The notes under the pieces: generated by a model | What the model saw: only the letters and a program-made list of their open reading frames with translations | The model's database searches: none | Told to the model about the DNA's origin: nothing | NCBI GenBank assembly: GCA_028583605.1 | Contig: CM053333.1 | Coordinates: 8,140,638-8,204,637, forward strand | Origin: Dastarcus helophoroides | Taxonomy: Eukaryota; Arthropoda; Insecta; Coleoptera; Bothrideridae | Length of the DNA: 64,000 bases | Reading direction: 5' to 3' | Translations under genes and position numbers: made by a program | Part shown: positions 6,192-63,154 of the stretch, in pieces | How the letters are laid out: each line of letters starts with the position of its first letter | How positions within the stretch are numbered: position 1 is the first letter of the stretch

Positions 6192-6970
6192 TACTCCTTA
6201 TTGACCGTACGAGCTTGAGAGGTAAAAATCCCTGATGCACTACGTCATGGTAGACGAAAAAAAAAGTGAGCAAAACTTTAACATTTGATCGGACTTAACG
6301 TGCTTTTTTCGGTCTTGGTTCTCCTGGGTGCTTCCATTGGGACGATTGGGGTTTGGTTTCGACGTCATAACCATATACCCATGATTCGTCACCAGTTATG
6401 ACCCTTTTGAGCAAATAAGGATCATCACTGACGTCATTCAAGAGCTCCTTAGCGATGCTCATGCGACGGTTCTTCTGATCAAAATTCGCTTCGGAACAAC
6501 TTCGCTCAGACCGTCTCATGCCCAAAACATCCGAAAAAATTTCATGACAAGAGCCGAGTGATATGCCAACATCCTTAGCAACTTCTCTTATGGTAATTCG
6601 ACGATTTTCAAAAACAATTTTCTTCACAGCTTCGACGATATCTTCTGTTGTTGATATGCTGGGGCGTCCAGAGCGAGGTTCGTCGTCGGCTTCTTCTCAG
6701 CCATCTTGAAAGAGTTTGTACCACTTGTAAACATTTTTTTTTTACTTAGACCATACTCACCGTATGCCACTGTCAACATTTCAAGTGTTTTAGAGCACTT
6801 AATTCCATTTTTCACACAAAATTTGATGCAAATTCTTTGCTCCATTTTTTATAATAATAGAAAATTACCGAGCACAACAAAATACGTCTAAGCTCTTTAT
6901 CTGTCAAAAACAAAGGTTTACTCTCTTGGATACTTATACGACTGACTAACGGCTTTAAGTTGGAAGTGAA

Positions 6971-7035
6971 TACAATCACCGTACCATGCTGATGAGGCCA
7001 AGGAAGGCCGAAACTAGTCTATGGTTGCGATTGTA
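6971..7035 (+). ncRNA. Hammerhead ribozyme, 5' repeat
   Basis: The conserved core CTGATGA is at 6989-6995. Stem II is GGCC (6996-6999) with loop AAGGAA and GGCC (7006-7009). GAAA is at 7010-7013, and stem III collapses into the palindrome ACTAGT ending in the GTC cleavage triplet (after 7019). Stem I pairs ACCATG (6983-6988) with TATGGT (7020-7025) with one wobble. After an internal loop, TACAATC (6971-6977) pairs with GATTGTA (7029-7035). A loop-less palindromic stem III implies action as a dimer or in a multimeric transcript, as known for Penelope-like and retrozyme hammerheads. Confidence 0.9.
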
Positions 7036-7436
7036 CATATTTTCAATTTTAAGCACGTTTAACTGTTTAATTACAGAAGATTTAATTGGTCGTTTGTCAA
7101 AACTAGATGAAAGTAAAGTCACGCCGAGGACGTTTGTATCTATGGATGTTGCGATGCAACCCGTGATACAAGCTTTGCCTCATCTACGTGAACTTTGCAA
7201 TTGCAGTCTGGTTTTCATTAGATTCTAACAGAATTAGATTTCAATTGCATCGTAATAAATTTGTATATATTCGTATATACAAGGCTTATTATCTCAGCAG
7301 AGAAGAATGCTTCAATTAGCATGTAGCGAAAATGTTTGCGTAATAAACAGTTAAAAGTCAGTTACCAGTCACTTGATAGAGGTTTACTCTCTTGGATACT
7401 TATACGACTGACTGGCGGCTTTAAGTTGGAAGTGTA

Positions 7437-7501
7437 TACAATCACCGTACCATGCTGATGAGGCCAAGGAAGGCCGAAACTAGTCTATGGTTGCGATTGT
7501 A
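7437..7501 (+). ncRNA. Hammerhead ribozyme, 3' repeat
   Basis: Copy of the 6971-7035 ribozyme with all core bases kept: CTGATGA at 7455-7461, GGCC/GGCC stem II, GAAA at 7476-7479 and the GTC cleavage triplet ending at 7485. Both stem I helices are intact. Confidence 0.9.
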
Positions 7502-7714
7502 CATATTTTCAATTTTAAGCACGTTTAACTGTTTAATTACAGAACATTTAATTGGTCGTTTGTAAAAACAAAGCATGCTATGTACTTGAAACTGTGAATA
7601 TATTTTCCGGACATGTGTACCAACACAACAACAATAAAAAATCGATAATCGAATGTACGTTGTCCGCGAAACTTGAAAAATCACCTTACTTTTTGAACAC
7701 ATCTCGTATTTTAA

Positions 7715-45185: not shown

Positions 45186-46702
45186 CATCTGTAACTCAGC
45201 TATGGAAAAACATGGTGAGGCTAGGATTGTGGCATTAGATATCTCAAAGGCTTTCGACAGAGTCTGGCACCGATCTCTTCTCGCCAAATTAACATCTTAT
45301 AGTCTTCCCCCTGGACTCTGGTTAACAACTATCGCCCTATATCTTTGTTACCCGTTATATCTAAAGTGATGGAAAAGGTTATCAACATCGAGATTCTCAA
45401 ATATCTGGAGAAAAATAGAATCATCTCCAACAGGCAATACGGTTTTAGACAACAACATTCCACTGGCGATCTACTGGCATATGTTACTCATATCTGTACC
45501 TCAGCTATGGAAAAATATGGTGAGGCTAGGATTGCGGCATTAGATATCTCAAAGGCTTTCGACAGAGTCTGGCACCGATCTCTTCTCGCCAAATTAACAT
45601 CTTATAGTCTTCCCTCTGGACTCTGTCATTTGATATCCAATTTTCTCGCTGGCAGATCTCCTCAGGTCGTCGTTGATGGCATCTCATCCGAGACATTTGC
45701 GATTAACGCATGGGTACCTCAGGTGTCTGTTCTGTCTCCTACTCTATTTATGTTACACATAAACGATCTCTTAGCTTCAACTTCCAATTCTACATTCAGC
45801 TGCGCAAATGATAGTAACCTTGTGTCATCTTTTTTCTCCGACAAACCATTATCTATTGCTGCTTTAGATCGACTGAGGAAACAGCAGATGATTAATCGGG
45901 ATCTCGAGATTATTCTGGAGTGGGGAAAGAACAATTTGGACGACTTCAACGCTTCAAAAACTCAGGCCGCGGTTTTCTCTAAGAAATCATCATCAAGGGA
46001 TAATGCAACAAACATACTAATGGACAGTAAAATCCTTCCGATGGGATCTAATCTATCTATCCTAGGAGTGAATGCGAGCACTAACTTCTCTTGGGACGAT
46101 CATGTGCGTGCCATTGCCAAATCCGCCTCTCAGAAGCTAAGCTTTCTTTTTAGAGCAAAGAATTACTTGACATCTCATCAGCTACTTACATTTAACAAAG
46201 CTCAAGTTAGGGTAATACTAGCCAATACTGTTCTCATGTTTGGAGGTCAACTCCAAAGCACATTTTAGCTCTCTTGGATTCAATTGAAAGAAGAGCGATT
46301 CGCCTAATTGATGACGATAGTCTGACCGATTCTCTCGAAACACTAGAGCACAGGCGTATGGTTGGTGACTTGTTTCTTTTCTACAAGTACTATCATGGAA
46401 GATGCTCGCAGGAACCAAAAGGATTGATCCCTCCAGGGGTAAGATTCTTGACGCGTACTAGACAGTCGGAGACAGCAAATTTCTGTGCGGTCCAGCTTGA
46501 CACAGTGAGGACTTCTCTCTAGGAATACTCTTTTTTCTATAGAACTGCCAAACTATGGACTCGCTACCGAAAAGAATTTTCCCCAAAAATTACAACCTAT
46601 CCTTGGATAGATGGCGGTTTATCGCCATCTATTCTTGTTTCCGCATCCTACTCGCAGTGCTTTGAAAGCATAGTGGGGTTACCCTTTGCGAATGGATTAA
46701 AC
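45186..46702 (+). mobile_element. Jockey/CR1-like LINE (family C), 5'-truncated
   Basis: It starts within the RT domain and ends GGATTAAACTTTAAACAAA. It lacks RNase H. The first ~137 bp duplicate a later segment out of order (305-bp step), so the 5' region is a rearranged tandem duplication. A longer copy lies on the minus strand at 57508-59735. Confidence 0.85.
45345..46522 (+). pseudogene. Reverse transcriptase of LINE family C
   Basis: The 45345-46268 ORF holds LPVISKVMEKVINIEIL, YGFRQQHSTGDLLAY, ALDISKAFDRVWH (first catalytic Asp), VPQVSVLSPTLFMLHINDL and SCANDSNLV, where the YADD box has become CAND. The thumb continues to LITFNKAQVRVILANTVLMF-like sequence. A stop near 46266 precedes the C-terminal part (46274-46522) with RRAIRLIDDDSLTDSLETLE. 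The lost YADD Asp and early stops show it is inactive. Confidence 0.85.
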
Positions 46703-52092: not shown

Positions 52093-52133
52093 GTTAAAGT
52101 CAGTCAGTGTAATTAATGAGTTAGTAGTTTGAA

Positions 52134-52656
52134 CAAACGACCAATTAAATGTTCTGTAATTAAACAGTTAAACGTGCTTAAAATTGAAAATATGTACAAT
52201 CGCAACCATAGACTAGTTTCGGCCTTCCTTGGCCTCATCAGCGTGGTACGGTGATTGTATACACTTCCAACTTAAAGCCGTTAGTCAGTCGTATAAGTAT
52301 CCAAGAGAGTAAACCTCTATCGGGTGACTTGTAACTGGCTTTTAACTGTTTATTACGCAAACATTTTCGCTACATGCTAATTGAAGCATTCTTCTTTGCT
52401 GAGATAATAAGCCTTGTATATACGAATATATACAAGTTTATTACGATGCAATTGAAATCCAATTTCATTAGAATCTAATGAAAACTAGACTGCAATTGCA
52501 AAGTTCACGTAGATGAGGCAAAGCTTGTATCACGGGTTGCATCGCAACATCCATAGATACAAACGTCCTCGGCGTGACTTTACTTTCATCTAGTTTTGAC
52601 AAACGACCAATTAAATGTTCTGTAATTAAACAGTTAAACGTGCTTAAAATTGAAAA
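52134..52656 (-). mobile_element. Retrozyme-like element, copy 2
   Basis: Minus-strand copy of 6916-7563. It has one full repeat with the ribozyme (52134-52318), the ~282-bp middle, and only about 57 bp of the other repeat (52600-52656). In element sense its 5' end begins some 19 bases after the predicted ribozyme cleavage position. The exact 11-bp duplication AGTAGTTTGAA is at 52123-52133 and 52657-52667. Confidence 0.85.
52195..52259 (-). ncRNA. Hammerhead ribozyme, copy 2
   Basis: CTGATGA, GGCC/GGCC stem II, GAAA and the ACTAGTC cleavage region are identical to the 6971-7035 ribozyme, with cleavage predicted between 52211 and 52210. One base pair of the inner stem I helix is lost (ACCACG facing TATGGT); the outer helix TACAATC/GATTGTA is intact. 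Confidence 0.87.
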
Positions 52657-52737
52657 AGTAGTTTGAAGTAAATAAGTGAGTTCATTATTCAGTTGTAGTG
52701 TTCCGAGTTTAGTTTGGTAATAAAGTGGGTATTATTC

Positions 52738-57519: not shown

Positions 57520-59735
57520 TCGCAAAGGGTAACCCCATTATGTTTTCAAAGCACTGCGAGTAGGATGCGAAAACAAGGATAGAGGGCGATGAACCGCCTT
57601 CTTAAACAAGGATAGGTTGTAATTTTTGGGGAAAATTCTTTTCTGTAACAAGTTCCATAACTTGGAAATTCTATAGAAAAAAAGAGTCTTCGTAGACAGA
57701 AGTGCTCACTGTGTCAAGCTGGACCGCACAGGAATTTGCTGTCTCCGACTGTCTAGTACGCCTCAAGAATCTTGCCCTTGGGGGAATCAATCCTATTAGT
57801 TCCTGCGGGCATCTTCCATGATAGTACTTGTAGAAAAGAGACAAGTCACCAACCATACGCCTGTGCTCTGGTGTTTCCAGAGAATCGGTTAGACTCTCGT
57901 CATCAATTAGGCGAATCGCTCTTCTTTGAATTGAATCCAAGAGAGCTAAAGCGTGTTTTGGAGCTGAACTCCAAACATGAGAACAGTATTGGCTAGTGTT
58001 GGCCTAACTTGAGCTTTGTATATTGTTAATAGCTGATGAGATGTAAAGTATTTTTTAGCTCTAAAAAGAAAGCCTAGCTTCTGAGAGGGGGATTTGGCAA
58101 TGATGTGCACATGATCGTCCCAAGAAAGGTTAGTGCTCGCATTCACTTCTAGGATAGATAGATTAGATCCCATCGGAAGGATTTTACTGTCCATTAGTAT
58201 GTTTGTTGCATTATCCCTTGATGATTCCTTAGAGAAAACCGCGGCCTGAGTTTTTGAAGCGTTGAAGTCGACCAAATTGTTCTTACCCCACTCCAGAATA
58301 ATCTCGAGATCCCGATTAATCATCTGTATCTGCTGTTTCCTTAGTCGATCTGAAGCAGCAATAGATAATGGTTTGTCGGAGAAAAATAATGACACAAGGT
58401 TACTATCATCTGCGTAGCTGTATATAGGGTTGGAAGTTAAAGCTAAGAGATTATTTATGTGTAACAGAAATAGAGTAGGAGATAGAACAGACTCCTGAGG
58501 CATCCCTGCGTTAATTGCAAATGCTTCGGATGAGATGTCATCGACGACGATCTGAAGATATCTGTCAGCGAGAAAATTTGATATCAAATGACAGAGTTTA
58601 GGAGGAAGACCATAAGATGTTAATTTGGCGAGAAGAGATCGGTGCTAGACTCTGCCGAATGCCTTTGAGATATCCAGTGCGACAATTCTATCATCTGTGT
58701 AGCTCTATATATGATTGGAAGTTAACGCTAAGAGATCGTTCATGTGCAACAGAAATAGAGTAGGAGACAGAACAGACCCCTGAGGCACCCCTGCTTAATC
58801 GCAAATGTCTCGGATGAGATGCCATCGACGATGACCTGAAGAGATCTGTCAGCGAGAAAATTTGATATCAAATGACAGAGTCTAGGAGAAAGACCATAAG
58901 ATGTTAATTTGGCGAGAAGAGATCGGTGCTAGACTCTGTCGAAGGCCTTTGAGATATCCAATGCGACAATCCTATCATCTGCGTAGCTGTATATAGGATT
59001 GGAAGTTGAAGCTAAGAGATCATTTATGTGTAACAGAAATAGAGTAGTAGACAGAACAGACCCCTGAGGCACCTCTGCGTTAATCGCAAATGTCTCGGAT
59101 GAGATGCCATCGACGACGATCTGAAGAGATCTGTCAGCGAAAAAATTGGCTATCAAATGACAGAGTCCAGGAGGAAGACCATAAGATGTTAATTTGGCGA
59201 GAAGAGATAGGTGCCAGACTCTGTCGAAAGCCTTTGAGATATCCAATGCCACAATCCCAGCCTCACCACGTTTTTCCATAGCTGAGTTACAGATATGAGT
59301 AACATATACCAGTAGATCGCCAGTGGAACGTTGTTTTCTAAAACCGTATTGCCTGTCGGAGATGATTCTATTTTCCTCCAGATATTTGAGAATCTCGATG
59401 ATGATAACCTTTTCCATTACTTTAGATATAACAGATAACAAAGATATAGGGCGATAGTTGTTAGCCAGATTCCTTTTTCCCTTTTTCGGGTCAGGCTGCA
59501 CTCTAGCAGATTTCCAGATGTTAGTGAATACATCTTTGTTGTAAGAGAGTATGAACAATTTGCTTAGGACAGGAGTCAACTCTGGGGCGCACTTCTTAAG
59601 AACAATTGCGGGAATACAATCAAGGCCAGAAGCTTTCAAGGAGAATCTTCCTGATTGTGCATTGTCTGAAAACAACTTCAGGCATCGAAGTGCCAACCTT
59701 TGGGAGAATAGGAGGTTCTTGCTAATTTTTTGACA
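57520..59735 (-). pseudogene. Reverse transcriptase of LINE family C, copy 2
   Basis: From the right: SGLDCIPAIVLKKCAPELTP, NNYRPISLLSVISKVMEKV, YGFRKQRSTGDLLVY, VALDISKAFDRVWH (first Asp), VPQGSVLSTTLFLLHINDLL and SYADD (intact catalytic box). The frame then re-enters RIVALDISKAFDRV because the segment is duplicated. After two extra copies the thumb resumes (58587-57946) and the C-terminal domain follows (57940-57671: RRAIRLIDDESLTDSLETPE). No RNase H. The endonuclease half is missing. Confidence 0.87.
58406..59256 (-). repeat. Three tandem copies of a 284-285-bp RT segment
   Basis: TCATCTGYGTAGCT starts at 58406, 58691 and 58975, and the copies match through GAGATATCCARTGCGACAAT. Each unit spans the RT core from LDISKAF to YADD (about 95 codons). 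Frames differ between copies because of small indels and stops. Confidence 0.92.
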
Positions 59736-59763
59736 AAAAATTTTGTTGCAAGCAAGAACAAGA

Positions 59764-59869
59764 CATGAAAATCGTGTTGAAACACAAATCTTGTCCCCGG
59801 AAACCAAGAACGATTAGAAAACACAACAAAGGTTGCTCTAACGCTTTTCGATTCGATAGAGAGATCCAT
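59764..59869 (-). mobile_element. Penelope-like terminus family P2, short copy
   Basis: AACACAAATCTTGTCCCCGG, AACCAAGAACGATTAGAAAA and ACAACAAAGGTTGCTCTAAC match the P2 arms. GAACAAGA flanks both sides (59756-59763, 59870-59877). Confidence 0.7.
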
Positions 59870-61899: not shown

Positions 61900-62259
61900 C
61901 TTATAACATACATCATTAGGTTATTTCAGAGAAAAGAGTTATAAAAAAGGAGAACAGCGTGCATACGTATAAATGGGCAATAATGCTTGTTTATCCTTAC
62001 GAGATAAAATTATCTTTATGCCGCGCCGACGATATTGCTTCAATATTTACAAAGAAATTTCTAGAAAACTGAATTTATATCGAAATCACATATCATATTG
62101 GCACACACCTCTCAATTACTGGGAGATGCACCTCAATCTTACGTTGCTTTGCTTCGTACATTGTAAAGGTATGTTTTCCTCGGGGTTAACGGTTATGATG
62201 ATCCTGCAGGGATAATCCTGCAACGATAATCATTAGGCACTATTTCTTACTATTTCTTA

Positions 62260-63154
62260 TGCTGGCTCCACACTCGCGCGCCAATCGCCGCATGAATTCA
62301 CGCTGCGATTCGCGCGCGATTTTTGCACGAAAAACATGTCCCTCCACACTAGCAAGCTTCGCAATGAAGTTCGCGCTTTCAAGAGAAATGGACCCAGAGA
62401 TAACCACTGCTGCTGCCGCTAGGCTTTGCGCTATAGCATATTATAATTATCTCTATATTAGAATGGCGTGCAGGGAAAGGGCAAAACTATGCCTACAGCT
62501 CTCAAGGAATAATCTCAGGAAACTTGTAGGGATATGGACAGATCACTGTCGATTAAACAAACACCTCCACAGAATGGGAATTATAAACGACCCGAGCTGC
62601 AGGGGGTGTTTAGAAGAAGATGAGAGTGTCGAGCACGTGATGTGTCACTGCATGGCACTAGCATCAATCAGAGGATCCACACTGGGGGACCTCTGGCCTA
62701 GTGTGGCCAGTTTGGGAGAGGCGCATCCAAGGGACGTTCTTCAGTTTCTCAACAAGGTTAGGTGGCTGAATGAATGACCAAGGACACCTCAATCGCGGGA
62801 ATAGCACAATGAGCCCGGAAAGGGTGGCCTAAGTGCTGGCCTAAACTTAAGGCAACCCACAACGAATCCAGAATTATCTCTATATTAAAAATAAACACCA
62901 AATACAAAAAAAAAGGAAATCGTTCTCTCTGAAACCACCCAACAATCACCAGAAAATACTTTAAATCTGTGACTGAATTCACGCCGACAGTGTGGATGCA
63001 TTCGCGCTCGCGAACCCGCGAACCCTTTGACGCGGACCAAAAAACCGACTTCGGACGGGGAACTGCGCGAAGCGCAAACGCGAAGACGCGAAAGCGTCCA
63101 CACTCGAGTTCGCGTTATTTCGCGGGCTTTCGCGGCACGAGTGTGGAGCCGGCA
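62260..63154. mobile_element. PIF/Harbinger-type MITE, GC-rich, with nested LINE A tail
   Basis: TGCTGGCTCCACACTCG at the left is inverted as CGAGTGTGGAGCCGGCA at the right, with TTA on both sides (62257-62259, 63155-63157), the Harbinger target duplication. It is strikingly CG-rich (GCGCGCCAATCGCCGC, TTCGCGCTCGCGAACCCGCG) compared with the rest of the window. No transposase. LINE A tail inserted at 62461-62871. Confidence 0.85.
62461..62871 (+). mobile_element. LINE family A, 5'-truncated copy in the Harbinger-type MITE
   Basis: The 16-bp duplication AATTATCTCTATATTA (62445-62460, 62872-62887) flanks it. The reading frame gives MACRERAKLCLQLSRNNLRK, LVGIWTDHCRLNKHLHRMG and CRGCLEEDESVEHVMCHC (zinc-knuckle-like C-terminal region after RNase H), ending LQFLNKVRWLNE at 62777. 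The untranslated tail ends ACAACGAATCCAG, no poly(A). Confidence 0.9.

Follow-up and report, generated by a model that had tools for sequence, protein, structure and literature searches.

How retrozyme circles and Penelope elements enter chromosomes is an open question: a circle offers no 3' end, and head-to-head copies have previously been ascribed to self-priming. A stretch of 64,000 nucleotides of the beetle Dastarcus helophoroides (contig CM053333.1, positions 8,140,638 to 8,204,637; hereafter the window) harbours an element whose copies seem to record the reaction, in that both inverted halves carry the variants of one template and have two fixed loops as their starting points, each loop belonging to one strand of the target. 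In our reading, to which we give a probability of roughly 0.7, it is a non-autonomous non-LTR retrozyme, of which a probably Penelope-like enzyme would reverse-transcribe one hammerhead-made circle, starting from the two nicked strands of the target with a separate loop for each. Its features in the window are as follows, A and B denoting the two start loops of the 466-nt unit and TSD a target duplication.

6906..6915, no strand: left TSD, AAAAACAAAG, exact 10-bp repeat
6916..7563, plus strand: copy 1 of the retrozyme, a single A-ended block of about 1.4 466-nt units (no head-to-head partner)
6971..7041, plus strand: first hammerhead ribozyme, of type I, core 6989-7019 with the cut predicted after 7019; RF02275 match of 22.6 bits, below gathering
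7437..7507, plus strand: hammerhead ribozyme 2, predicted cut after 7485, core 7455-7485; RF02275 match of 22.6 bits, below gathering
7020..7485, plus strand: predicted self-cleaved, circularisable 466-nt unit RNA, from the spacing of the two predicted cuts and the circular fold
7090..7110, plus strand: A start hairpin (columns 176-196 of the unit) with the AC-rich loop GUCAAAACU; copies have 3' ends at this place, which the circular MFE also shows as a hairpin loop
7292..7303, plus strand: B start hairpin (columns 378-389 of the unit), UCUC[AGCA]GAGA; B-ended blocks of other copies have their 3' ends at this place, again a hairpin loop by the circular MFE
7564..7573, no strand: right TSD, AAAAACAAAG, exact 10-bp repeat
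about 52134..52656, minus strand: copy 2 of the retrozyme, truncated at the 5' side and A-ended, in which one hammerhead is intact (core 52211-52241); flanked by the TSD TTCAAACTACT at 52657-52667 and 52123-52133

The first-pass annotation had described copy 1 as a retrozyme-like element with a complete hammerhead in each of two direct repeats, and this description is supported, with the other genome copies in agreement. The core CTGATGAGGCCAAGGAAGGCCGAAACTAGTC is letter-identical at 6989-7019 and 7455-7485, and the two predicted cleavage sites do lie 466 bp apart. As read from the sequence, the ribozyme has a type I layout with a stem II of GGCC/GGCC, a loop AAGGAA and a two-part stem I, while its stem III is a single A-U pair capped by the palindrome CUAG. 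The covariance-model check that had been proposed came out divided: the best Rfam match, Hammerhead_HH9 (RF02275), is found in both repeats over the full model length (E 0.0053, 801 bases searched), but its 22.6 bits fall short of the gathering score of 52, and at this curated cut-off Rfam lists no match in the window. The core pattern CTGATGA-N(6-18)-GAAACNNGTC occurs three times in the window and not once in 100 shuffles, the third occurrence being that of copy 2, an insertion with an 11-bp TSD that was absent from the earlier list. The window also contains LINE-like remnants at 45345-46265 (plus strand), 58932-59807 (minus strand) and 62259-62774 (plus strand), with RVT_1 found twice and zf-RVT once. 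A LINE protein search listed at least 120 proteins, of which few are named; almost all of these names are arthropod, one entry is a Bacteroidota MAG, and by itself this would only suggest that the host is an arthropod.

The 10-bp target duplication noted earlier is exact and encloses the whole of copy 1, contrary to an origin of the two repeats as independent insertions. Likewise, the statement that the element codes for nothing holds at the 130-aa threshold of the list of open reading frames (ORFs), no ORF of at least this length overlapping the span. The direct repeats (6914-7103 and 7380-7569, each of 190 nt, 466 apart and 97% identical with five differences) are real. They are, however, not LTR-like, because the copy represents about 1.4 turns of the 466-nt unit, other copies comprise more turns, and 5' ends lie all round the unit.

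The exact 31-nt hammerhead is present 1103 times in the genome (539 Mb, 50 contigs), with 557 and 546 occurrences on the two strands, against none for the reversed control. This is more than chance would give, and the further copies that had been anticipated, multi-unit ones included, thus exist; in viral contigs no exact match was found. The first 100 hammerheads listed, all from one contig, form 71 clusters (the last, which may be cut short, was dropped), of which 54 have a single hammerhead and 17 have more. Among these clusters, the spacing between hammerheads on the same strand is 465-470 in 18 of 19 cases, and the eight clusters with both strands are all arranged head to head. The hammerhead core is intact in 113 of 119 units. 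Changes amount to 1.58% in the hammerhead region as a whole and 1.54% in the rest of the unit, compared with 0.47% in the core alone, so that the region is no more conserved than its surroundings and conservation is limited to the core.

Three matches to the hammerhead pattern lay outside the main set. One of them (L048:2319-2588) turned out, by the unit profile, to be a more diverged family member, which has kept the core and carries CCGG in place of CUAG as stem-III palindrome; this single case may reflect selection for dimer pairing. The other two, L049 and L050, were rejected as members, the unit profile giving one weak match at most (L049, E 0.061), and none of their listed reading frames was taken for a Penelope-like element (PLE), as judged from the frames and not by family comparison. 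Arrays of 20-bp units within larger repeats about 410-500 bp apart, at L050:3338-5029, are seemingly unrelated.

The anatomy of the insertions was studied in 39 fetched loci plus the window copy, i.e. 40 insertions aligned to the unit; they are the top-scoring and hence long copies from a genome search that scored 40 of 1989 candidates and listed at least 112 matches. Their blocks consist of whole and partial turns of the 466-nt unit and are truncated at the 5' side, with up to 4.47 units per block and 7.43 units in the longest insertion. Head-to-head inverted pairs, here called composites, make up 24 of the 40 insertions, many of them within a single target duplication. The 3' ends of the blocks fall into two narrow classes. 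In 31 of 37 A rows the end lies at unit columns 181-191; five others cease matching at 172-179, with letters off the majority and the tract continuing, and the last, in L037, at 212. The B rows are even tighter, with 24 of 25 ends at columns 381-385 and one at 389, some 199 nt on the unit from the outer ends of class A. Two ends belong to neither class, namely that of the plus block of L040, whose further flank reads A-like, and that of L041, cut at 360. Older fragments (L036:6-132 and L037:413-592) end at A too, and the aligned rows show no 3' tail at A or B ends.

In 23 of these 24 composites one end is of class A and the other of class B, L040 having been typed by hand; the exception is L037, whose minus block, ending at column 212, is counted by the broad bin as a second A yet is situated outside the A loop. 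The first set had been chosen by score, and 12 more loci were therefore taken from the copy list, five picked for mixed strands and seven others. Seven of them are composites, all seven with one A and one B end and with common flank runs of 9-14 nt, and the five others are A-ended, so that both sets together give A plus B in 30 of 31 composites. Since the 16 non-composites of the first set end at A in 13 cases and at B in two (one is unclassed), A appears to be the usual start and B to serve mainly as its partner. In contrast to the 3' ends, the 5' starts are spread over the unit; their departure from an even spread is not significant (p 0.06, in a biased sample), and we therefore claim no preferred 5' end. 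The element is not bounded by the hammerhead cuts: its 3' ends sit at the loops A and B, and the cut site is read through.

Each insertion, moreover, appears to derive from a single template. At 15 columns that are polymorphic in the family, only 25 of 513 cells with at least two units are mixed, where about 253 would be expected if units were independent. Within an insertion, the A block and the B block disagree at 4 of 233 cells, compared with a mean of 81.1 and a minimum of 47 when blocks were re-paired between insertions (2000 re-pairings). The later set, which has no control of its own, points more weakly in the same direction (6 of 86 cells mixed, A and B differing in 4 of 50). Shared variants in both inverted blocks show that these stem from one RNA sequence. 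This template was not the linear cut unit, since the cut junction (105|106) is crossed unbroken 124 times in 64 blocks and a 5' start within 5 nt of the junction occurs in just one of the 64; a circle is the simplest account of the unbroken junction.

Both end positions coincide with predicted hairpin loops. When 39 units were folded as circles, A and B each lay within a hairpin loop in 37 of the 37 MFE structures that keep the respective motif, the A hairpin being UCAUUU[GUCAAAACU]AGAUGA and the B hairpin UCUC[AGCA]GAGA; A is situated about 81 nt after the hammerhead cut. The circular fold of the window unit has -137.2 kcal/mol (z -6.5, 300 shuffles), with a pair probability of only about 0.3 for its A hairpin. 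For the unit of L047 the value is -169.1 kcal/mol, where 100 shuffles give -99.7 (sd 5.1), and here the predicted structure places the A and B hairpins in one multibranched domain. Among 173 predicted pairs in 41 rows a single one is compensatory (62-116, in stem I), which is not more than label shuffles give (changed cells that still pair number 126, shuffle mean 127.8). Covariation is too thin at this low divergence to prove the fold, and the fold is accordingly a thermodynamic prediction.

Target duplications accompany most of the paired insertions. A TSD of at least 9 nt was found in 20 of 23 composites and in 4 of 15 other insertions examined, compared with 14 of 1406 mismatched flank pairs (L040 and L041 skipped), and also in all seven composites of the later set. 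By a stricter count, TSDs of at least 10 occur in 19 of 40 insertions and in 3 of 1560 mismatched pairs. TSDs of 10-17 bp were read in 23 insertions. With each A block oriented rightward, 13 of these 23 have a C immediately before the TSD (binomial p 1.3e-5 against window composition, noticed post hoc). The preceding bases often read GAC or GTC, which resembles the GUC-AAAAC of the A loop, and target choice may thus partly mirror this loop.

From these observations we propose the following course of events. Transcripts of multi-unit copies would cut themselves at each hammerhead into 466-nt RNAs and be ligated to circles, as others have shown for relatives. Both target strands would be cut about 10-17 bp apart by an enzyme, most likely Penelope-like, that combines reverse transcriptase and endonuclease; one strand would then prime in hairpin loop A of the circle, and often the other would prime too, using hairpin loop B of that circle. 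The cDNAs would round the circle, each up to several times and stopping anywhere, and the two would finally be joined head to head. Two end positions, one-of-each pairing, unbroken passage of the cut site, single-sequence origin and TSDs are all legible in the sequence record of the insertions; the circle in place of a linear multimer, the identity of the enzyme and the order of the strands are what we infer. A more specific version, to which we grant slightly better than even odds, makes the circle a template with two ports: two dedicated hairpin loops, one for each cut target strand, with round-and-round copying, head-to-head joining and the A/B split as a built-in division of labour. If true, such a strand split could account for inverted repeats and tails throughout the Penelope elements.

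Several other routes could lead to similar copies. The template might be a linear multimer that is transcribed from a homogeneous array and left uncleaved, the hammerhead then serving another purpose; such a multimer could likewise yield homogeneous copies, young arrays are themselves homogeneous, five insertions have one majority unit in common, and hammerhead mutants had no effect on insertion in the Anolis PLE assay (PMC11167929). Older arrays are nevertheless heterogeneous, so that linear templates should often transmit mixed units, whereas mixed cells are rare, and 21 of the 25 are confined to insertions that are at most 97.3% identical to others. The retention of the core in nearly all units likewise argues against a template for which cleavage is irrelevant, and we regard this route as unlikely. 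Somewhat less probable still is mobilisation by a LINE, through ordinary target-primed reverse transcription with twin priming. Twin priming, as in the human L1, does produce inverted 5' pieces, and LINE-type reverse transcriptase ORFs are present in the same window. The A and B ends, however, lack any visible 3' tail, and the second priming site falls within the five columns of class B in 24 of 25 B rows instead of being scattered.

Another source of head-to-head copies could be self-priming by snap-back, or an antisense template. Such an origin has been proposed for the Penelope elements of rotifers, where self-priming on an antisense template has been argued from palindromes at inverted junctions (PMC3846280). 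Some junctions do fall in a palindrome at columns 338-378, and for L027, the only one of the 24 composites in which both blocks start at one column (223/223, with a 6-nt gap), snap-back is possible. This mechanism predicts near-equal 5' start columns, however, which agree to within 10 nt in just one of 24 composites, and it leaves the difference between A and B ends unexplained; as a general explanation it is very improbable. Finally, the tandem units might suggest a satellite spread by DNA recombination, with the hammerhead as a relic. The TSDs, the two end positions, the scattered truncated insertions on many contigs and the predominance of single-hammerhead clusters (54 of 71 among the first 100 hammerheads listed) have already largely refuted this idea, which we consider hardly credible. 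Reverse transcription of a circle from both target strands remains our preferred reading, and a Penelope-like type of enzyme is probably the mover, as the internal AC-rich start, the proposed extension on two strands and the asymmetric inverted ends all resemble PLEs.

Among the closest known systems are the metazoan non-LTR retrozymes (Cervera and de la Pena 2020, PMC7229834), with which the element shares a type I hammerhead, short AT-rich non-coding tandem units and multimers. Their G+C content under 50% agrees with the 62.9% A+T of the unit, and their TSDs, given as longer than 4 bp when present, with the 10-17 bp found here; the 466-nt unit is slightly above their range (RNAs of 170-400 nt, repeats of 150-450 bp). 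A circRNA template and a PLE as mover have been proposed for this class, which counts insects among its hosts (PMC7229834). The two-loop, head-to-head anatomy sets the element apart, the words 'inverted' and 'head-to-head' having no occurrence in the main text of PMC7229834, and in a literature search, mostly at title and abstract level, we recognised no description of paired fixed ends or of single-template inverted retrozyme copies. By description, the hammerhead resembles HHR_Amex1 of amphibian satellites, which likewise has a helix III of a single pair and a palindromic tetraloop (here A-U around CUAG), in a repeat of 330-350 bp as against 466 (PMC7229834). Amphibian hammerheads of this type cleave better as dimers (PMC7229834), and by analogy the present one would do so as well. 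Plant LTR retrozymes (PMC4918200, PMC7761336) similarly have hammerheads in direct repeats and a circular RNA, which is predicted here. They differ in their type III hammerhead, LTRs, PBS, PPT and 4-bp TSD, and the TSDs of 10-17 bp, the type I layout (RF02275) and the spread 5' starts rule out this identity.

The mode of insertion, on the other hand, recalls PLEs: these have a hammerhead in their repeats, partial tandems, a head-to-head inverted pLTR and an optional tail at one inverted end (PMC11167929, PMC3846280), the tail being one of 31 bp and the TSDs 8-10 bp in the elements of PMC3846280. The A-plus-B composites likewise combine, within one TSD, inverted halves lying head to head and a single extended end, with an asymmetry of the same kind but of about 199 nt between the ends, compared with a PLE tail of 30-40 bp. 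The purified PLE protein of Anolis cuts and extends both target strands in vitro (PMC11167929), and it begins reverse transcription inside the RNA at two adjacent sites. An AC-rich stem loop at +111 to +118 is used most often, the hammerhead cut being at +26. This start thus lies 85-92 nt after the cut in Anolis, and A about 81 nt after it here; top and bottom strands showed no difference in start site for the Anolis element (PMC11167929), whereas in the present one the start sites are split, one per strand. The hallmark ORF of PLEs, a reverse transcriptase canonically with a GIY-YIG endonuclease, has no counterpart in copy 1, whose span is free of ORFs of at least 130 aa. Judged by its insertions, the element works like a PLE and yet is not classed as one: within the metazoan non-LTR retrozymes, a class already known, it forms a new family, and what is new about it is the anatomy of insertion, with paired A and B ends and head-to-head copies apparently drawn from a single template.
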